The notes beneath the pieces were generated by a model. It ran no database searches, was not told the DNA's origin, and saw only the letters and a program-made list of their open reading frames with translations. A stretch of 64,000 nt of DNA from the NCBI RefSeq assembly GCF_018446385.1, contig NC_055987.1, positions 11,865,705-11,929,704 of the forward strand, read 5' to 3'. Position 1 is the stretch's first letter; every line of letters starts with the position of its first letter. This DNA is from Zingiber officinale (Eukaryota; Streptophyta; Magnoliopsida; Zingiberales; Zingiberaceae). Position numbers and translations under genes: made by a program. Positions 4,590-64,000 of the stretch are shown here, in pieces.

Positions 4590-7500
4590 ATCTCCCACTT
4601 ATTCTAAAAGACTAAGCTGCTATATCTGCTGCCATACATCTGATTCCTAATCCTTCAACATGTCCATCAAAATCTCTTGCCTTAAGGACCTCGGTGGAAG
4701 GATCTATAGGTCATCACCTGATGCAATCTAGGCAGCAACAACTTCTCCTCGTTTATACGATTTCTCGTATTGGGTGGTACTTGCGCTATATTGTGTTTAC
4801 TTGCCTTTATAGACTTATGGTTTCTTCGAGTTTGTTACTGCACCAATATTATTACAATAAATTGTAATAATCTTTGGACAAACCAGAAATCATATCTAAG
4901 TCTATCTTGAGATTATTGAGTCATTCATCTTTTATAGCTACCTCAGAGGCTTGCCATATACTAAGCTTCTATGGTGGAGTCCAGAAAAATACTATGCTTA
5001 TCACTCTTCCACAGTTATGACTTTACCTCCTAAAGTAAACACAAAACCCCGAGGTTGACTTATTATTGTCCCTATCCGATTGGAAGTCAAAATCCGTGTA
5101 ACCCATAGGGACCAAATTAACTGCCTTGTAAGCTAGCATATAATCTCTAGCGCCTCTAAGGTACTTTAATATATGCTTTACTGTAGTCCAATGTCCTTGT
5201 CTAGGGTTACTTTGATATATGCTAACTATGCTCTTGGCAAAACAGATTTCTGATCTCGTGCATAACATACATTAGGTTGTCTAACTGCCAAAGCATAAAG
5301 AACTGCCTACATTTCCTTTATCTCCTTTGATGTCTACAGAGACATATCTTTAGATAAAGTTACTCCATCCTGAAAAGGTAAGAAACCTTTCTTGGAGTTT
5401 TGCATGCTTAAAACGAGCAAGGATTTTTTCGATATATGAAGCTTGGGATAAGTAAAATATTCTTTTCTTGCGATCCCTTATTACTTTGATCTCAAGAATA
5501 TATTCATTCTCCCAAGTCCTTTATATCGAATTGTTTGGACAACCATACCCTTACTTCTGACAACATTTTGATATTGTTTCCAACTACCAAAAATGTTATC
5601 TACGTATAGTACAAGAAATACCACCACGCTTCCATCACACCTTTTGTATACACAAGACTTACCCGGTAAATAAATCCATGAGTCTGAATTACTTTGATAA
5701 ACCGGATGTTCCAAGACCTTGAAGCTTTGCCTCAGTCCAAGACCGATTGAGCTTACAAGATGCTCTTAGCCCTTTGCAATGAACCCTTCTGGTTGCTTTA
5801 TATGGATGCTTTCTTCAAGACTTCCATTAAGGAATACTGTCTTGACATCCACTTGCCAAATAGATAAAAGAATCCGGATAGACTTAAGCATGGCTACCAG
5901 TGAAAAAAAAAGTTTCCTTTTTCATCAAGCCTTGCTTTGAAGGTTTCTACCTCCCTGTCTATCCCTCTTTTTTCCTATTATAGACCTTTTACACCCAAAG
6001 GCTTTTACACCACTTGGTGGTTCTACAAGCTTCCAGATTTTATTAGAATACATATATTCTAATTCTATTATTCATTACTCTTTGCCAAGATGCTGCATAT
6101 TTATTTTGGAGTGCTTCGTCATATGTCCGGAGATCAGGTTCATGTCCTTCAGGGATCGAGTTCAAAAACTCTCCCAAAACATGAATCTTTTAAGGTTGCT
6201 TAACAACCCTCCCACTACGACAAGACATTTTCTGCAATTGTGTATCATTTGTGATACGTGTTGTAGTTTTCTTGTGGTATCTCATCTTGTACAGTTGGTA
6301 CTAGATTAGACATGTCTTTTATTATTTCCTTAAGAACAAATTTACTTATGAGCACATGGTTCATTATATAGTCCTTTTAAAATCAGTCATTGATGCTAAC
6401 AATGACCTTCTGATTTTAAGACTATAAACCTACTTTTGTTTATCTAGGATAACTTACAAACAAGTGAACTCCTATCCAACTTATTATTATCTCTCTTTAA
6501 CATATGTGCTGGATTACCCGAATCCGAATATGCTTCAAAATAGGCTTACGCCTATTCAGCAATTCTATATGAGTAGAGAGTTCTAACTTGGAAGGTACTA
6601 TGTTCACTTTCGTTTTCAAAGTTTTATCCTTAAAACAAATTTGGTAATTTTCTGAATAACTCATCATCTATCTAATTATTCCATAAGAGTCCTTTACCTT
6701 CTTTCTACTACATCATTCTGTTGGGGTGTACCAGATGCAGTTAGTTGGGATTGAAATCCAACTACTGATAAGTGACTCCTAAAATCTCTCAAGAGGTACT
6801 TGCCACTACGATCTTCCATAGTGACTTTTTACTTTAACATTTCTACGCATCAACCTTGTACTCTTTGAACTAATCAAAGTACTTAGTCTTGCGGTACATT
6901 AAGTAAATTTATTTGTATCTTGAATAGTTGTCTATAAAATAGACAAAATATTCAATACTACCTCTTGTCTGATAGTCATAGGATCACACAAATCAGAATG
7001 AACCGATTTCAACATATCTTTGACTCCATACCCCTTGGACTTAAAAACTTCTTGATTATTTTCCTTCCAAGTAAGACTCGCAGGTTGGAAATATTTCCAC
7101 TACCAATGAACCCAAAAGTTCATTAGCTACCAATGAATCCTACTCAAGTATAACCTAGCTTTTAGATGCCAAAGATATAATTGGTTCATTTCTGAAGGTT
7201 GCTTTCTCTTAAAATTAGAAGATGTGTTACTAATTTCCATTTGTTGCATCGTGGGAGTTATTGGATTATAAATTGTCAACCATCATACCAGAATAGATAA
7301 CTTCCCTATTTTTCTTGATAACAACTTTGTTATCAAAATAGACACAATATCTATAATAGTTTAGAAACTGAAATCAGGTTCTTTCTAAACTTGGTACGTA
7401 AAGACAATTACTTAAAATCCATATTTTATTCTTATCAAAGGATAAACATCTCCCACTGCAATAGCTACCACTTTTACAGTAGTGTCCATGTGGACGGTGA

Positions 7501-9122: not shown

Positions 9123-11576
9123 TGTTGGGTGCTACTCGGAAAACCTAGAGGTTCCACTGTACAAAAATTTTATACAAAGGTCTGAACCTTTTCCTAGCTA
9201 CCATGTGTTCTTTTAAATTAAATTTTGGATCGCCTGCGGAACTTAACACGTTTGATCCAAAACTTAATCTATTTGTTCTTTTAGGTTTTAACTTGGATCT
9301 CCTGCGGAACTTAACACGTTCGACCCAAATCACCTTAAGTTATTAATTCCATTAAATATTAATTTCCATAATTGGTTCCCAGTACTGACGTGGCGAGGCA
9401 CACGGCCTTCTTGGATATGGGAGCAACCACCACCGACTAGACAAAACCTTTTATAGAAAGCTAATATTTAATTTCCTAAAATAACTTTAGGTTAACCGAA
9501 AAGAACAATCAAATCACAAGGAAAAAAATAAAAGAACACAACATCGAAAAACATATTCGAAATTCTAGAATCGTAAGCCTCTTGTATTTGGTATTATTTC
9601 CATAAATAACTAGTATGATGCGGAAAGAAAAATTACTAGTTATACCTTGTAGAAAAATCTCTTGATCTTCTACCGTATTCCTCTTCTAACCTCGGACGTT
9701 GTGTGGGCAACGATCTTCCGAGATGAGAAACCACCAAGCACCTTCTTCTTCTCCTAGCTAGGTTCGGCCAACACAAAGAAGCTTCACCAAGGACGAAGAA
9801 CAAAACACCAACCAAGCTCCAAGGGATACAAGCTTTCTCTCCTTCTTCTTCTTCTTCTCCAAGTAGTATCCGGCCACCACAAGAACTCCAAGCAAGAGAT
9901 AAGTTTCCGCCACCACAAAAAAAGAAGAAAGGAAGAGGATGGCCGGCCACAATAATTTTCTTCAAGAATGAATAATTTCGGCCACCACCAATGCTCCAAG
10001 GGATGCTAGAGATGAGACTTGCTTTCTCTCCTTCTTCTCCTTCCTTGATCCGGCCACAAACAAAAGCTCCACCAAGAAGATAGGTTTCGGCCAATAAGAG
10101 GAGAAGAGAGAAAGGGAAGGGCCGGCCACCACACCAAGGAAAAGAGGGAGAAAAATAATAGAGGTTGTTCTCCATGAAGGCACCCCTACCCCTTCTTTTA
10201 TATTCCTTGGCTTTGGCAAATGAGGAAATTTATTTATAATAAAATTTCCTTAACTTTCCTTGACAACAATTAATTAAGAAAAAATTAAATAAATTTTCCT
10301 AATTAATTGTATGTGGCCGGCCACCTCATGTAGAGCAAATAGGATAATTTTAATCAACAATTAAAACTTCCTTTTTTGTCTTTGGAAATTTTAAAAAATA
10401 AAATTTCCTTTTAAAATCCCTTCATGGTTGATAAAAAGAAATTTCTATAATTTTAATTTTCAACATGTGAATAATTTTTCAGAGAAAAAATAAAATATCT
10501 TTCCAATCTACAAATAAGGAAAGAGATCTAATCTCTTTCTTTTAATCTTTTTGTAGATCTTTTTAAAGAGAGATATTTTAATTTTAATTCTCTGTAATAA
10601 ATTATATCTTCCACATAATAAAAATTAAAATTAAAATTCTTTTTAATTTAATGGGGGTCGGCTACCTAAGCTTGGGTTCAAGCTAGGGTCGGCCACCCAT
10701 GAACCAAGGCTTGGCCGGCCCCTTTCTCATGGGTATGAAGGTGGGTATAGGTGGGTATAGTACTCTATAAATAAGAGGCTACGATAGGGACCGAGAGGAG
10801 GAATTGGTTTTGGTCTCCCGATAAAATTAAGCATCCCATGTTCGCCCCGAACACACAACTTAATTTTATCAATAATAATTCATTCCACTAGAGAACTATT
10901 ATTGAACTACCGCACCAATCCCAAATTACATTTTTGGGCTCCTTCTTATTATGAGTGTGTTAGTCTCCCTGTGTTTAAGATATCGAATGTCCACTAATTA
11001 AGTGAGTTACTGACAACTCATTTAATTAATATCTTAGTCCAAGAGTAGTACCACTCAACCTTATCGTCATGTCGGACTAAGTCCACCTGCAGGGTTTAAC
11101 ATGACAATCCTTATGAGCTCCTCTTGGGGACATTATCAACCTAGTAATATATCAAAGAAATAAATATCAAATATATGTGCTTGTTATTATATTAGGATTA
11201 AGAGCACACACTTCCATAATAACCGAGGTCTTTGTTTCTTTATAAAGTCAGTATAAAAGAAACGACCTCAAATGGTCTTACTCAATACACTCTGAGTGTA
11301 CTAGTGTAATTATACAGTCAAGATAAACTGATACCTAATTACACTACGACCTTCCAATGGTTTATTCCTTTCCATTATGGTCGTGAGCTACTGTTTATAA
11401 TTTATAAGATACTGACAACATGATCCTCTGTGTGTGACACCACACACCATGTTTTGTACAATATAAATTAATTGAACAACTACATTTATCATAAATGTAG
11501 ACATTTGACCAATGTGATTCTTATTTCTAGATAAATGTTTATACCAAAAGCTAGGCTTTTAGTATACACTCTAACA
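9123..11576 (-). mobile_element. 5' LTR (right copy) of Copia element B
   Basis: Plus-strand termini TGTTGGGTGC...CTCTAACA. Very close to the left LTR apart from the 145-bp truncation there and a deletion of about 105 bp here (near 11147), which points to a fairly recent insertion whose pol has nevertheless decayed. It contains the same 179-codon frame (9636-10175, -), low-complexity and rich in K/E- and W-coding repeats. I do not regard it as a gene. Confidence 0.88.
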
Positions 11577-11627
11577 ACATGGAGATTGCAGGTGCAATTG
11601 TTCATGTGGTGAGATTGTGAAGGAGAG

Positions 11628-12205
11628 TCAAGTACGTCAAGGTTGACTGGATGCTTGACTAGAAAATCCTGGTGACTGAAGCCAGGTGAAAGACCTAGTG
11701 AGTGAAGGTAGGCAGCATGGAAAGTCCTGGTGAGTGAAGCCAGGTGAAAGTCCTAACTGGGAGGTTAGACAGACTGAAAGTCCTGGTGAGTGAAGCCAGG
11801 TAGAAGGAAAAACCCAAGTGAGTGAAGCTAGGTGAAAGTCCCGGTGAGTGAAGCCGGGCAGCTGGAAAATCCTGGTGAGTGAAGCCAGGTGAAAGACCTA
11901 GTGAGTGAAGCTAGGCAGTATGGAAAGTCTTGGTGAGTGAAGCCAGGCACAGGAAATCCAGATGGATCAAGTTTGATCAGACATATGGTATTGGGAAGTC
12001 CAAGTAGGTCAAAGGGATTGACCGGATACTTGGCACGGGAAATCCAAGTGGATCAAGGTTGATCGAACACCTGGTGAACATAAGTCCAAGTGGGTCAAAG
12101 GGATTGACCGGACACTTGGTGAGGGAGTCCTAACAGGTCAAGGGTGACCGGATGCTAGGCATGATGTATCAACAGGTCATGGTTGACCGGATGTTGGTTT
12201 AGGGG
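11628..12205 (+). repeat. Covarying hairpin array in LTR A2
   Basis: The cleanest array in the window. Examples: CCTGG/CCAGG (11668-11686), CCTAG/CTAGG, CCCGG/CCGGG, CCTAAC/GTTAG, CCAAGTA/TACTTGG (12000-12033) and CCAAGTG/CACTTGG (12086-12119). The last two contain an inner GGTCAA/TTGACC stem. Confidence 0.8.
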
Positions 12206-12239
12206 ACTATGGACTTGTTTTTGGGCAAAAACAAGAGCT

Positions 12240-12590
12240 GGATCGATCAGCCGATCGATTGGCTCATGCCCAATCGATTGGCCGATCGATTGGCTCATGC
12301 CCAATCGATTGGCCGATCGATTGGGAGAGTCCCCACGACAAGCCTCCTCCCAATCGATCAGTGGATCGATTGGGGAGAAGTGCCGCGCAAACAGAAAGCC
12401 TCCCAATCGATCAGCCGATCGATTGGGAGCCTCCGATCGATCAATCGATCGATTGGGAAGTGCGATTTCGCACGATAAGCCCTGGATCGATCAGCCGATC
12501 GATCCAGGTAATTCTCGAGAGCACAGAGGCGCTCTGGATCGATCGACCGATCGATCCAAAGCCTCCTCGATCGATTGGGAGCAATCCAAT
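12240..12590 (+). repeat. AATCGATT/GATCGATC palindrome array in LTR A2
   Basis: Nine or more dyads. Inverted repeats CCCAATCGAT...ATCGATTGGG occur at 12300-12325 and 12401-12428, and TGGATCGATC...GATCGATCCA at 12483-12506. They are separated by unique spacers such as 'gagtccccacgacaagcct'. Confidence 0.85.
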
Positions 12591-13117
12591 CAATCAGGAT
12601 CTGACCGTTGGCGCAAGATATAGCTGTTGGCGAGCGCTTCTCTCGGCAGAACTTCCACGGCTTTCATCTCCGATCCTCACAGCGACTCCAGCCACTTCTC
12701 CACAATTCTCACGCTAGATCTTGAAGGTTCTTGGAGGTTTTTCCAAGTCAAGAGGCGGATCTACAACAAGAAGAAGAAAGCTAGGGTTAGAGTTTTCTTG
12801 TGCAAACTTGTAAGCTTTTACTTATATTTTATTTCCTTTCCCTTTCTTCTTGTAGTGTGAACTTGTAGGGCTTCTCCGCCTTCAGTAGTTACCGTAAAGG
12901 AAGTTTTTATTAGTGGAGGGTACGTGAGTGTGTGGATCCTTGGATTAGTCACCTCTTCTTGAGGTGGATACCAAGTAAATCTTTGTGTTAGCGTTATATG
13001 TATTGTTTCTTGTACTTTCCGTTGCATATCTTTGAAGAAACAAGCAACTAAGAGCACAAGGATCACGCCAAGCTATTCACCCCCCCCCCCCCTCTAGCTA
13101 TATATTTGGTTCCAACA

Positions 13118-14070
13118 GGAAATAATATCAAAGTGTTGTCGGAAGTAAGGGTATGGTTGTCTAAACAATTCTATATGAAGGACTTGGGAGAATGCACATA
13201 TTCTTGGGATCAAAGTAATTAGGGATCGCAAGACAAGAATATTATGATTATCCCAAGCTTCCTATATCGATACGATCCTAGCTTGTTTTAACATGTAAGA
13301 CTCCAAGAAAGGTTTTCTACCTTTTAGACATGGAGTAACTTTATCTAAAGAGATGTCTCTGAAGACATCAAAGGAGATAGAGGACATGAAGGCAGTTCCT
13401 TATGCTTCGGCTATCGGAAGCCTAATGTATGCTATGCACGAGACCAGATATCTGCTTTACCGTGGGCATGGTTAGCAGATATCAAGAGTAACCCTGGGCA
13501 AGGACATTGGACTGCTGTTAAGCATATATTAAAGTACCTGAGAATAACTAGAGATTATATGCTAGTTTATCAAGCAGATAATTTGTTTCCTGAAGGTTAC
13601 ACGGATCTTGACTTCCAATCAGATAGGGACAATAGTAACTTAAGCTCGGGATTTTGTGTTTACTTTAGGAAGTGAAGCCATAACAATGGAAGAGTGTTAA
13701 GCATAGGTGCTTTTCAAATTTCACCATAGAAGCTGAATGGCTCAGAAACTTCATGATGGACTTAGACATGATTTCTAGTTTGCCCAAAAATTATTACAAT
13801 TTATTATAATAATAGTAGTCCAGTAGCAAACTCAAAGAAACCATAAATCCATAAGACAAGTAAACACAATAGAGTGCAAGTACCACCCAATACGAGACAT
13901 CGTATAACGAGGAGAAGTTGTTGCCGCCTAGATTGCATCAGGTGATAACCTGAGAGATCCTTTCACTAAGGCCCTTAAGGCAAAAGTTTTTGATGGGCAT
14001 GTTGAAGGGATAGGAATAAGATGTATGGCAAAATATATGACAACATAGTCTTTTAGTATAAGTGGGAGAT
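13118..14070 (+). pseudogene. Copia pol 3' fragment (RT tail and RNase H) of element B2
   Basis: Plus-strand homologue of the B pol fragments. Around 13140-13240 the frame resembles B's RT tail. Around 13475-13670 it reads HWTAVKHILKYL... and ends FCVYFRK, the RNase H/tail region. Stops and frameshifts break it. The upstream part is cut off by LTR A2. It ends in the polypurine tract AGTGGGAGAT (14061-14070) just before the 3' LTR. Confidence 0.8.
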
Positions 14071-42519: not shown

Positions 42520-42783
42520 TGTTGGTGCAACCTTAGGTCAAGGTTGACCTGGTTGACCTGACTCGAGTTGACCTGACTCGAGTTGTATTTTGATGTTTGA
42601 CAAGAATAGAAAAGTTCTATTATGATGTTTGACGAGAATAGAAAAGTTCTATTCTGATGTTTGACGAGAGTAGAAAAGTTGTATTCTGATGTTTGACAGA
42701 ATACAAACTTGGGAGATTGTGGGTGCAATCTTTGGTCAAGGTTGACTTGGTTGACCCGAGGTGAGTCGACCTGATTTGGAAAA

Positions 42784-43140
42784 GTCCTGGTAAGTGAAGC
42801 CAGGTGAAAGTCCTGGTGAGTGAAGCCAGGCAGTTGGAAAGTCCTGGTGAGTGAAGCCAGGCAAGGGAAATCCAGATAGGTCAAGGTTGACCAGACATCT
42901 GGTGAAAAGTCCAAGCAGGGAGCTTGGCACGAGAAAAGTCCAAGTATGGAGAATTGGCACGGAAAAGTCCAAGCAAGGAACTTGGCACGGGAAAAGTCCA
43001 AGTATGGAGACTTGGCACGGAAAAGTCCAAGTATGGAGACTTGGCACGGGAAAAGTCCAAGTATGGAGACTTGGCACGGAAAAGTCCAAGCAAGGAGCTT
43101 GGCACGGGAGAAGTCCAAGTATGGAAGCTTGGCATGGGAA
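42784..43140 (+). repeat. Covarying hairpin array in LTR G
   Basis: Units of 35-38 bp. The stems alternate CCAAGC/GCTTGG (42911-42927) and CCAAGT/ACTTGG (42998-43015) around a five- or six-base loop. Earlier units are CCTGG/CCAGG and CCAGAT/ATCTGG with an inner GGTCAA/TTGACC stem. Confidence 0.82.
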
Positions 43141-52484: not shown

Positions 52485-53060
52485 AAGAGTCAAGTAGGTC
52501 AAGGTTGACCGGATACTTGACTGGGAAGTCCTAACTGGGATGTTAGGCAGAGTGAAAATCCTAGTGAGTGAAGCTAGGTGAGAGGAAAAGTCCTGATGAG
52601 TGAAGCCCTCGAAAGTCGGTGAGTGAAGCGAAAATCTCGTGAGAAGCGCGGTGAAAATCAGTGAGTGAAGCTAGGTGAAAAGCCAGTGAGTGATGAGTGA
52701 AGCTGGGTGGTGAAAGTCCGGTGAGTGAAGCTCGGTGGAGTGAAGCAGTGCAAAGTCGTGAGTGAGAAAAGTCACGAAGGTCGTAAGGTCATGATTAAAA
52801 TCCGGTGAGTGAAGCGGTGAAAACCCTAGTGAGTGAAGCTAGGTGAAAGTCCCGTGAGTGAAGCCGGGCAGGAAAATCCAGATGGATCAAGGGTGATCGA
52901 CATCTGGTGTGTTGTGAAGGTCAGTAGGTCAAGGGAGTGACCGGATACTTGAAGAAAAGTCCAAGTGGGTCAAGGTTGATCGGACACTTGGTGGGAGTCT
53001 TAGCAGGTCAAGGGTGACGGATGCTAAGCATGATGTACCAACAGGTCAAGGTTGCCGGAT
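52485..53060 (+). repeat. Hairpin array in LTR1 of D, partly eroded
   Basis: The same 'gtgagtgaag' units as A2, but from about 52600 many units have lost one stem arm by small deletions (for example 'gaaagtcggtgagtgaagcgaaaatc'). The long GGTCAAGGTTGACC units at the right end still pair. Confidence 0.7.
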
Positions 53061-53099
53061 GTTGGTTTGGAAGGCTTGGGACTTGGTTTGGGCAAAAAC

Positions 53100-57260: not shown

Positions 57261-58840
57261 TGTTGGTGCAATTTCCAGTAGGTCAAAGTTGACCTAGTTG
57301 ACCAAGCGTAAACCTTGGTCATGGTTTCGATGTTTGACAATACAGAAAGACATGTAGACATGCACAATGCAGGTGCAGTTGTCCATGCGGAGAGATACTG
57401 ATCAAGGTCTGATCAGGTTGAATGAAGAAGAGTCAAGTAGGTCAAGGTTGACCGGATACTTGACTGGGAAGTCCTAACTGGGATGTTAGGCAGAGTGAAA
57501 ATCCTAGTGAGTGAAGCTAGGTGAGAGGAAAAGTCCTGATGAGTGAAGCGCTGCGGTTGGAAAGTCCTGGTGAGTGAAGCGGTCGAAAATCTGGTGAGTG
57601 AAGCGGTGAAAATCCTAGTGAGTGAAGCTAGGCGAAAGTGAAAGTCCCGTGAGTGAAGCCGAGCGGTTGGTGAAAGTCTGGTGAGTGAAGCAGGCGGGGA
57701 AAGTCGTGAGTGAAGCGACGGTTGGAAAGTCTGGTGAGTGGAAGCGATTAGAAATCTGGTGAGTGAAGCCAAGTGAAAACCCTAGTGAGTGAAGCTAGGT
57801 GAAAGTCACAGTGAGTGAAAGGGCGAGGAAAATCCAGATGGATCATGGGTGATCGACATCCGGTGTTGTGAAGGTCAAGTAGGTCAAGGGAGTGCGGATA
57901 CTTGGATCGAAGAGAAAGTCCAAGTGGGTCAAAGGATTTGACCGGACACTTGGTGGGGAGTCTTAGCGGTCAAGGGGTGACCGGATGCTAAGCATGATGT
58001 ACCAACAGTCAAGGTTGGACCGGATGTTGGTTTGGAAGGCTTGGGACTTTGTTTGGTCAAAACCAAGTTCGGATCGATCTGGGACCGATCGGTGATCACT
58101 GATCGATGCGGTGGCCGATCAGTAACAAACAGAAGTGTACGTGGATTATCTGATCGATGCGAAGGCCGATCGGAAAGCAACGAAGAGAAGAAGGAGAAAG
58201 GCTGATCGGTCCTGGGACCGATGAGACCTCTGAGCCGTCGGGACACCTAATGGTCGGGCTTATCTGTCCCGGGACCCGATCAGAGAGGGTTCCCTGTCTG
58301 CGTCGGGCTTCGGCCTGATCGATCCTTCTCCGTTGTGAGCGGCGGTCTTACATCTTCTTCATCGGCGCTGCTTAACGGTGGATGCGGTATAAAGAGGTGA
58401 GGCTTCTGATGCGGTAACTCTCACTTTCTTCTCTGGTCGAGCTTCTTCTTCCTTTGCTGTGCTCTTGAGCTTTCTTTGAAACTCAGAAGATTGAATTGAG
58501 CTAGCCCGGTGAGAGTTGCTTGTTGGCATTAAATCAGTGAAGTTGGTGCTTCGTAGGACTTCAGTCGGCAAGAGAAATGGCGATGTGTTGTACATTCATT
58601 GTGTATTTTGTTCTTGCTCTTCTTTGTATTTCCATATTGCTGTTACACAGAGATTATTTGTGTGAGGTTTCTCCACCCAAGGGAGTACTTATTAACCCGG
58701 TTCTCCGAGGACTCATCCCAGCCGGATTGATAGGGCTTGTCACCTTACGGACACGCCCGAGGAGTAGGTATATCTCCGAACCTCGTTCGTCCATCAGTTT
58801 GAGGTTTGTCTTCTTTCCTTTACGTTTCTCTGGTTCCATT
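57261..58840 (+). mobile_element. Central LTR (LTR2) of the D dimer
   Basis: Begins TGTTGGTGCAATTTCC after a polypurine tract. It follows LTR1 in order (hairpins 57430-58035, palindromes 58075-58330, 'ggtataaagaggtgagg' near 58386, 'gtttctccacccaa') but with dozens of 1-20 base deletions and insertions. Its end and the following primer site are missing and are replaced by about 60 bp of unrelated sequence (58845-58905). Confidence 0.82.
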
Positions 58841-62056: not shown

Positions 62057-63513
62057 TGTTGGTGCAATTACCAGTAGGTCAAGGTTGACCTAGTTGACCA
62101 AGCGTAAACCTTGGTCATGGTTTCGATGTTTGACAATACAGAAAGACATGTAGACATGCACAATGCAGGTGCAGTTGTCCATGCGGAGAGATACTAATCA
62201 AGGTCTGACCAGGTTGAATGAAGAAGAGTCAAGTAGGTCAAGGTTGACCGGATACTTGACTGGGAAGTCCTAACTGGGATGTTAGGCAGTGAAAATCTGG
62301 TGAGGCTGGTGGGAGAGTCGTGTAGGCGAAAGGTCTCGGTGAGTGAAGCGGTGAGAAAATCCAGTGAGTGGCTGGTGAAGTGAAGGTGAGCTAGTGGTGA
62401 GCTAGGTGAGGTGAAAGCCGTAGCAGCTAGAAAGTGATCTGTTGAGCGGTAGAAATCTGATTAGGCGGTGAAGCGGTGAGAAGCCTGGTGAGTGAAAACC
62501 TAGTGAGCTGGGTGAGCTCACGGTGGCGTGAATCGATGGATCAAGGGTGATCAGACATCCGGGTGTTGTGTTGTGAGTCAAGTAGGGAGGGTGATGGATG
62601 AGAGAGAAAAGTCCAAGTGGGTCAAAGGGGGACCCTGACACTTAGCGGTCTGTGAGAGTGGGATGTCGATGTACCAACAGTCCATTGACGGATGTTGGTT
62701 GGAAGGCTTAGGACTTGGTTTGGGCAAAAACGATCAGGAAGAGGACGATCGGTGATACGGTCATGCGATCGAACCAAACAGCAATGTACATGACATCGGG
62801 TGTCCGCAAGGAAGAAGAAGAAGAATAAGTGACGCTCGAGCATATGTAGGAAAGCTATCGTCCCAGTGATTCCCGAGTTCCTCATCCGACCGACCCGAGG
62901 CATCTAGCTGATCAGCTTCCCCACCGTCTGACGATCAGTCTCGAGCGATCAGCCGCGGTCTTACATCTTGTGTGCAGCTGCTTCTTCTTCGCTTCTGGTA
63001 TGCGGTAAGAGAACGAGGGCCTTCTAAGTAACTCTCTCACTCTTCCTCAAAGGCTTCTTCCTGCTGTGCTCTTGAGCTTTGCTAAGCTCAAGCTTGGTGA
63101 GCTTCTTGTTGGCTTGTTGGCATTCGTCGAAGTTGGTGCTTCATCAGGACTTCCAATGTGAGTATTTGTACATTCATTGTGTATTTTGTTCTTGCTCTTC
63201 TTTGTATTTCCATATTGCTGTTGCAAGTTATTGTGGCGAGGTTTCTCCACCCACAAGGAGTACTTATTAGCCGGTTCTCCGGGGACTCATCCACCGACGG
63301 ATTGATAGGGCTCATCCACCTTACGGACACGCCGAGGAGTAGGAGTATATCTCCGAACCTCGTTACATCCATCGAGTTTGAGGTTTGTCTTCTTCCTTTT
63401 CGTTTCTACGGTTTCATTTCAGCTGCGCTAACCCTAATCGTAGGAAGAAACGTGAAGAATTTGGGACGGCTATTCACACCCCCCCTCTCTAGCCGAGTAC
63501 GACGATCCTAACA
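62057..63513 (+). mobile_element. 3' LTR (LTR3) of the D dimer
   Basis: Starts TGTTGGTGCAATTACC and ends GATCCTAACA, followed by TTATC. The outer 200 bp and the last 450 bp agree closely with LTR1. The middle (62285-63010), holding the hairpin and palindrome arrays, is heavily shortened and altered. Confidence 0.85.
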
Positions 63514-63518
63514 TTATC

Positions 63519-64000
63519 ATGGGGACTCACCTAATCAATCGGCCGATCGATTGGGCATGTGCCAATCGATCGGCTGATCGATCCAGCTCCTTGTTTTTGC
63601 CCAAAAACAAGTCCAAAGTCCCCTAAACCAACATCCGATCAACCATGACCTATTGGTCCATCATGCCTAGCATCCGGTCACCCTTGACCTGCTAGGACTC
63701 CCTCACCAAGTGTCCGATCAATTCTTTTGACCCACTTAGACTTTTCTCCTCGTGTCAAGTATCTGGTCAATTCCTTTGACCTACTTAGTCTTTCCACCAG
63801 ATGTCTGGTCAACCTTGACCCATCTAGATTTCCTCATGCCTGGCTTCACTCACCAGGTCTTTCCATTGCCTAGCTTCCGGTCACCAGGACTTCCAACTAC
63901 CTAGCTTCACTCACTAGGATTTCCAACTGCCTAGCTTCACTCACTAGGACTTCCCAATTGCCTAGCTTCACTCACCAGGACTTTCATCTGCCTGGCTTCA
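63519..64000 (-). mobile_element. Remainder of 5' LTR of element H
   Basis: Directly continues 47325 after removal of D: 'gagtccccatgataatgcttctcccaatcg' across the site matches 'gagtccccacgacaagcctcctcccaatcg' in A2. It holds two palindromes (63533-63585) and then the hairpin array read in reverse (63620-64000). The outer LTR end is beyond the window. Confidence 0.85.
63620..64000 (-). repeat. Covarying hairpin array in LTR H
   Basis: Reverse-strand units as in A2: CCAAGTG-, CCTAGCA- and CCAGATG-type stems around GGTCAA...TTGACC, then 'cttcactcac' short hairpins (CCTAG/CTAGG, CCTGG/CCAGG). Continues past the window edge. Confidence 0.78.

Follow-up and report, generated by a model that had tools for sequence, protein, structure and literature searches.

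Tandem hairpins with paired stem changes in Copia-like long terminal repeats of ginger

Described tandem arrays and RNA hairpins, and the ginger locus

Plant LTR retrotransposons are known to carry tandem-repeat arrays in their non-coding regions (PMC6317226), and the ginger array resembles those described there in that it, too, consists of short tandem units in a non-coding stretch of such an element. In the main text of that paper, however, the terms hairpin, stem-loop and secondary structure are absent, whereas the ginger units are hairpins in which pairing is kept. The word hairpin is also absent from the available text of a paper on Amomum repeats (PMC11066291). The RNA hairpins attributed to template switching, as presented in PMC8794818, share with the ginger array compensatory changes in short stems; the ginger array differs from that account in that G·U intermediates are common, A·C intermediates are rarer, and no inversion of the loop was noticed.

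Structural RNAs of the Rfam type are like the ginger hairpins that we call type II in that the fold is constant while the stem sequence changes, to a degree exceeding a tree-preserving null. Unlike such families, the ginger module is a multi-copy tandem inside LTRs, and no Rfam family reached its gathering score in 10400-13200. The element itself resembles Copia LTR retrotransposons in its TGTTGG...CCAACA ends, TGGTATCAGAGC primer site, polypurine tract and zinc-knuckle gag, but it differs from them in that no pol domain was found in the pieces of the ginger copies that were scanned, and in the additional hairpin array. A 2009 paper reportedly traced satellites to a hypervariable 3' region. 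In a literature search by title and abstract opening, with most subscription journals outside its coverage, no paper was found that describes covarying arrays of hairpins in LTRs.

The hairpin array and the elements that carry it

The window, which is the whole stretch of 64,000 nucleotides analysed, contains 17 short hairpins at 11628-12205, in a Copia-like LTR and close to its 5' end. A greedy count of hairpins of at least 5 bp gave 11 in the array, compared with a mean of 4.7 and a maximum of 9 in 300 dinucleotide shuffles, and the fold z-scores of the array were −5.1 for the forward strand and −5.7 for the reverse strand, which do not tell the strands apart. The shuffle count and the fold z-scores rule out chance hairpins arising from a repetitive composition, and the string of hairpins reported for this region in the preliminary description is thus present.

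All hairpins of the array are given here on the forward strand. The leader hairpin U0 (11628-11658) has the outer stem TCAAGTA/TGCTTGA with one G·U pair and the inner stem CGTCA/TGACT with one mismatch, where the majority outer stem in four families is TCAAGTA/TACTTGA. It is followed by nine type I units at 11668-11947 (starts at 11668, 11694, 11726, 11782, 11814, 11840, 11871, 11897 and 11929), which follow the plan of CCTGG or CCTAG, the loop TGAGTGAAG, and CCAGG or CTAGG; in the array the loop is TGAGTGAAG or one change from it. All five pairs are Watson-Crick in six of these units, one contains one G·U pair, and two contain one mismatch. Among them lies the hairpin U0b at 11752-11769, CCTAAC-TGGGAG-GTTAGA, whose outermost pair is C·A and whose majority form in the families FM, F57 and FA is CCTAAC/GTTAGG.

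The type II plan consists of a 7-bp outer stem, an inner GGTC/GACC-like stem and a one-sided bulge of 3 nt, which is GGA or AGA in the majorities. In the array, II1 (11958-11988) has CCAGATG/CATATGG with the inner stem GATCA/TGATC; II2 (12000-12033) has a perfect CCAAGTA/TACTTGG; II1x (12044-12074), which is seen in the family FM, has CCAAGTG/CACCTGG where the family majority is CCAGGTG/CACCTGG; and II3 (12086-12119) has a perfect CCAAGTG/CACTTGG. II4 (12129-12159) has CCTAACA/TGCTAGG, which in the family F57 is CTTAGCA/TGCTAAG, and II5 (12168-12198) has ATCAACA/TGTTGGT with one G·U pair as its only defect, the majority being ACCAACA/TGTTGGT. With the leader included, seven units have the type II core: two are perfect, one has only a G·U pair, three have a single mismatch in the outer stem, and the leader has one G·U pair outside and one mismatch inside. 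Of the stems quoted in the preliminary description, CCAAGTA/TACTTGG and CCAAGTG/CACTTGG are exact and CCTAAC/GTTAG is found at 11752-11769, but CCAGATG/CATCTGG reads CCAGATG/CATATGG in this array; its exact form occurs in the window copy at 52875-52910 and in 40 aligned rows, and the copy at 42869 has CCAGATA/CATCTGG.

Further palindromic hairpins, of the form ATCGATTGG/GATCGATC, lie downstream of the array in the same LTR, at 12242-12560 on the forward strand. Their outer arms also occur in paired versions, CTGG/CCAG and CCAA/TTGG, and all their matches to miRNA models were under the Rfam gathering scores.

The LTR carrying the array is a 5'-truncated copy at 11578-13117 on the forward strand, cut at 11577/11578 by another repeat. 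The complete LTRs in the loci L009 and L010 start approximately 70-140 nt earlier than the truncated one, and their match to the window stops at approximately 13117; approximately 11577 is also the point where matching begins in many genome copies of the window LTR. The border is sharp, with the other repeat, ending in ...CTCTAACA, directly abutting the truncated LTR, which points to a nested insertion or a deletion. Further copies of this other repeat end at 4590 and 14070.

In the complete copies, the LTRs are approximately 1.6-1.7 kb long with the ends TGTTGG...CCAACA; paired LTRs with TG...CA ends are found in L009 (1121-2812 and 6976-8645) and also in L010. The primer-binding site TGGTATCAGAGC, which we take to be of the iMet type, lies just 3' of the 5' LTR in all five loci inspected. 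A purine tract such as AAAAAGGGGGAGAT precedes the 3' LTR in complete copies, and 24 places have a purine tract immediately 5' of TGTTGG, some of them belonging to other families. A gag zinc knuckle (PF00098) was above the cut-off in L009, L010 and L012, and Retrotran_gag_2 scored 20.2 bits in L013, under its cut-off of 27 bits. No pol domain was found, and no integrase preceding a reverse transcriptase, in the 16 ORFs and frame pieces scanned, which overlap in places and cover part of the copies; this gives the copies a non-autonomous or decayed appearance.

Of 23 places examined, 17 have the start of the leader hairpin 98-186 nt into the LTR and two have it beyond 300 nt; in the remaining four, only a weak core-like match is listed, at +11 of the LTR. 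A simple scan of 12205-13117 gave no TATA-like site except at 13099. The array would lie in U3, a label taken from its position in the LTR.

Arrays of the same kind belong to four related families: FM, which includes the array at 11628-12205, F63, F57 and FA. Their common hairpin order is U0, U0b in some, a run of type I units, and then II1, II2, II3, II4 and II5, with the extra II1x in FM; the order is not complete everywhere, as individual loci miss a member here and there. In the window, this common order is found on the forward strand in the FA array at 840-1397 (LTR start at approximately 742) and in the F57 arrays at 52487-53069 and at 57430-58034 (LTR start at approximately 57261). A degraded F57-like array lies at 62226-62700 on the forward strand (LTR start at approximately 62057), and an F63 array at 63624-64000 on the reverse strand runs off the end of the window. 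The FD array at 42784-43134, on the forward strand, consists of type I units, a single type II hairpin at 42869-42905, and then CCAAGC/GCTTGG-like and CCAAGT/ACTTGG-like units. A model built from 80 type II units gave 34 matches in the window at E<1e-3, every one of which was inside one of these seven arrays.

The last units of the FD array, at 42904-43134, represent a third kind of tandem hairpin. They read CCAAGC-AGGGA-GCTTGG and CCAAGT-ATGGAG-ACTTGG, and here again the two forms differ by a paired exchange, C-G against T-A. At 42581-42707, approximately four tandem units of 32 nt, the clearest being TTCTATTCT...AGAATAGAA, are capable of forming hairpins and are unlike the others in sequence.

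The type II module was also found with other stems in a fifth LTR group, at L038 (forward strand, 245-560), L063 (reverse strand, 60-300) and L028 (forward strand, 950-1100). Its stems include CCAGACA, CCAGCTA, CCAAATG, CCAAGCG, CCAGACG and CCAGATA, and some units at these three loci are broken. Exact matches to the core pattern of this group number 35,300 across the assembly (17,731 + 17,569), compared with none for the backwards control. In a hand count of 100 matches listed, 85 were fully Watson-Crick and fell into five stem types; of the other 15, five had one G·U pair, two had one A·C pair, four had another single mismatch, and four had several defects, as if they were recombinants of two unit types.

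The assembly searched comprises 3.09 Gb in 211 contigs. The families are large, each query giving between 7,796 and 11,454 first-look candidates, 40 of which were scored. The FM sample consisted of eight of the 40 places scored, one being the window itself, and five longer stretches, which two of the eight places overlap; the other samples were 30 of 40 places scored for F63, 30 of 40 for F57 and 6 of 40 for FA. L001, L005, L006, L014, L044 and L061 were omitted for overlap with the window or with each other, and units above set error limits were excluded.

Copied and covarying stems

The preliminary description held that the outer stems of successive units change on both arms, and the two unit types differ in this respect. 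Among 455 type I units with the exact TGAGTGAAG loop, the stem was CCTGG/CCAGG in 137 and CCTAG/CTAGG in 128, and the forms between them, CCTGG/CTAGG with a G·U pair and CCTAG/CCAGG with an A·C pair, occurred 20 and 8 times. In a set of 869 type I units, from which units more than three changes away from three types were excluded, those with a single defect in the inner three pairs had G·U in 102 cases and A·C in 25; in the outer two pairs, C·A was commoner (46) than U·G (27). The order strings of the units show that the type I arrays are mixtures of the two stem types, which often alternate.

The tree-preserving null was computed using our own R-scape-like script, in which the substitutions on an inferred tree are kept and the columns are shuffled, the tree being derived from the same short columns. 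For type I, the whole-structure total was 225 for all rows against a null maximum of 205, and 96 against 79 for FM; the totals for F63 and F57 were within the null, and no single type I pair reached E<0.05. The contrast between defects in both LTRs and in one LTR of 19 LTR pairs gave p=0.42 for type I, and p=0.15 without other mismatches. The type I stems are thus mainly two unit types copied along, with weak covariation, so the successive compensatory changes claimed for them reduce to a few old events and were overstated. Deamination alone was considered as the cause of the change of CCTGG into CCTAG. Each of the two steps is a transition within a CHG context, and two transitions always restore pairing; paired changes in type I are therefore weak evidence, and the weighing was moved to type II, to G·U versus A·C, and to the contrast before and after insertion.

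In 80 chosen type II units (60 distinct), 98.1% of the pair cells were standard, compared with 83.2% (sd 0.8) when the partners were shuffled, and the pairing fell to 16-39% when the partner was slid by 1-3 columns. Both-sided changes occurred in 9 of the 12 pairs, where the shuffled mean was 7.4. This set consists of 69 rows from 11 hand-picked loci of the four families and 11 fifth-group units fitting a regular expression; the fifth-group units in L028 and L063 lie partly outside that expression and are to that extent absent from the set.

Under the tree-preserving null, three of the 12 pairs of the 80-unit set (58 distinct rows) had E<0.05, and the total was 319 against a null maximum of 98 in three runs of 300. 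For all type II units together with the fifth group (272 rows), one of 12 pairs had E<0.05, and the total was 1193 against a null maximum of 380 in two runs of 150. In both of these sets, the five top column pairs are all stem pairs. The signal is weaker for the type II units of the families without the fifth group (264 distinct rows), where one of 13 pairs had E<0.05. A covariation test of the kind proposed with the preliminary description, run with this script on the units sampled, thus placed type II above both the shuffled and the phylogenetic null, and no single type I pair above the latter.

The paired changes in type II are real. Across families, the type II stems are near-constant at each position of the array, yet they differ between positions, and they are paired in the 7-bp stems. 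In unit majorities with at least 6 rows, the pairs other than Watson-Crick are G·U, save at two places with a majority gap. Four pairs show a transition between two Watson-Crick states across families, for which the G·U intermediate is found in 33 copies and the A·C intermediate in 4, the copies not being independent. At pair 1 of II2 in F57, U·G is found in 17 copies and U-A in 9.

These data bear on an explanation by copying only, in which a few ancestral hairpin units arose once, were duplicated in tandem and carried along, and later copies were neutral. The two dominant type I stems and their frequent alternation, the near-constancy of type II stems at each position across families, and the five stem types that hold the 85 fully paired fifth-group matches among the 100 listed are all in its favour, and the derivation from a few ancestral units copied intact, which the preliminary description had set against its own reading, largely holds for type I. 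However, copying only leaves unexplained the both-arm differences between type II paralogues at matched places, the paired changes at the family level, and the depletion of shared pair-breaking changes described below, and for type II it is weakened by the tree-preserving null. As an account of the whole array we consider it unlikely.

Pairing before and after insertion, and its interpretation

Changes from the family majority were classified as pre-insertion when present in at least two elements or in both LTRs, as post-insertion when present in one LTR of a pair, and as private when there was no mate; A·C pairs and other mismatches were counted as pair-breaking. In these counts, in which the rows share ancestry and are non-independent, 16 pair-breaking changes were pre-insertion and 57 were post-insertion or private, compared with 68 and 79 changes at the unpaired unit positions (p=4e-4). 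This corresponds to an approximately three-fold depletion of pair-breaking changes among the shared or pre-insertion changes. In contrast, G·U-making changes were equally divided, 37 and 37, which differs from the pair-breaking ratio of 16:57 (p=5e-4), and they were not significantly depleted among the shared changes relative to unpaired and downstream positions (p=0.34). The direction was the same in all four families, and the Mantel-Haenszel odds ratio was 0.29 for both contrasts (p=3e-4 and 1e-3). Even the unpaired positions within the units show some depletion relative to the downstream LTR (68:529 versus 79:392, p=0.012).

In a stricter count, in which CpG sites and rows with more than 8 differences were excluded and U0 and U0b were included, breaking versus unpaired gave p=9e-4 and breaking versus G·U gave p=0.04, whereas G·U and A·C alone, at 30:14 before and 46:38 after insertion in a CpG-free count, gave p=0.19. 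With CpG excluded as a possible cause of the G·U excess, the effect is therefore weakened, yet the depletion of breaking relative to unpaired changes stays. Strand-biased mutation was set aside: downstream of the units, transitions are almost equally frequent on the two strands, and G·U is therefore not favoured by a mutation bias.

The 19 LTR pairs were chosen by distance and similarity (84-99.5% identity), and LTR conversion can blur the distinction between before and after insertion in the numbers that follow. Type II defects found in both LTRs were G·U in 46 cases, A·C in 6 and other in 17, and those found in one LTR only were G·U in 40, A·C in 22 and other in 13. The contrast of G·U with A·C gave p=0.004; when other mismatches were added, the ratios became 46:23 and 40:35 (p=0.13).

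Within the same LTR pairs, three type II and four type I base pairs differ on both sides, from Watson-Crick to Watson-Crick, where a rough estimate of chance gives approximately one and two. The three type II changes, found in one LTR at L012 and L013 (II5, U0 and II3), are each from G-C to A-T. Double Watson-Crick changes within units also seemed to be in excess, with 17 seen and 6.2 expected, and were not used as evidence; six of them came from rows of another group or from a misassigned unit (L038, L074), leaving 11.

Such both-sided differences are what would be produced by template switching, or by the correction of quasi-palindromes, while DNA is replicated or RNA is reverse-transcribed, a process in which one arm is rewritten from the other and selection is unneeded, and template switching is a known source of paired changes in one step, as presented in PMC8794818. 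However, this process should purge G·U like A·C, yet the shared changes show no significant depletion of G·U-making ones, G·U intermediates are frequent, and no inverted loop was noticed in a non-systematic look at the unit alignments. The template-switch or inverted-repeat origin raised in the preliminary description is not needed, given the many G·U intermediates in the family-level paired changes, and we regard it as quite improbable.

The reading that we prefer, with a probability of about two in three, is that the array forms hairpins in the sense-strand RNA whose pairing is under selection while the element replicates and decays after insertion, and that these hairpins may serve as a binding platform. 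The sense strand would act as RNA, less likely as single-stranded DNA, because G·U is better tolerated than A·C. The constraint would act during the replication of the element, because pairing is lost after insertion. As for the proposal that structure is kept in RNA or single-stranded DNA, type II agrees with it, and sense RNA fits best with the tree-null result, the depletion of shared pair-breaking changes and the excess of G·U over A·C among intermediates and among the states that the two LTRs have in common.

In this mechanism, the hairpins are strung along the 5' portion of the LTR, on its U3 side, and the genomic RNA would carry the array once, shortly past the polypurine tract and near its 3' end. 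The folded sense RNA would be under selection while the element passes through its replication cycle, and decay would set in once a copy has inserted. The type I units may have become numerous through slippage or unequal exchange involving a few unit types. The motifs that recur in the loops and bulges would form a putative platform with many sites for an RNA-binding protein, such as the Gag of the element or a host factor, with putative roles in packaging, stability or export. A protein platform is favoured by the repetition, the conserved loops and bulge, and the position of the array.

The position of the array, within the 5' half of the LTR, would also suit a signal at the DNA level, in which the units are repeated U3 transcription-factor sites and their palindromy reflects dimer binding or cruciform DNA. 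TTGAC, which in our view resembles a W-box, occurs often in the inner stems of the four families; the fifth group, however, mostly has CTGACC or TCGACC rather than TTGACC, and such a signal does not account for the covariation of the outer stems, the tolerance of G·U on the sense strand, or the one-sided GGA bulge. It is the least probable of the explanations considered here, and we give it very little weight.

A wider reading of the selected RNA hairpins is offered as a tentative possibility. Several LTR groups in this plant may share one modular RNA, in which tandem hairpins past the polypurine tract are maintained by selection as a recognition platform with many sites, for example in packaging by Gag, and which would possibly let a non-autonomous element be recognised by the proteins of a partner.

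That stems change in sequence yet stay paired in many copies suggests that a folded RNA matters to the element. Elements with both LTRs provide a built-in control before and after insertion, by which selection on RNA pairing becomes directly measurable. Should the module prove to be a recognition platform, it would show how copies with gag alone are recognised.
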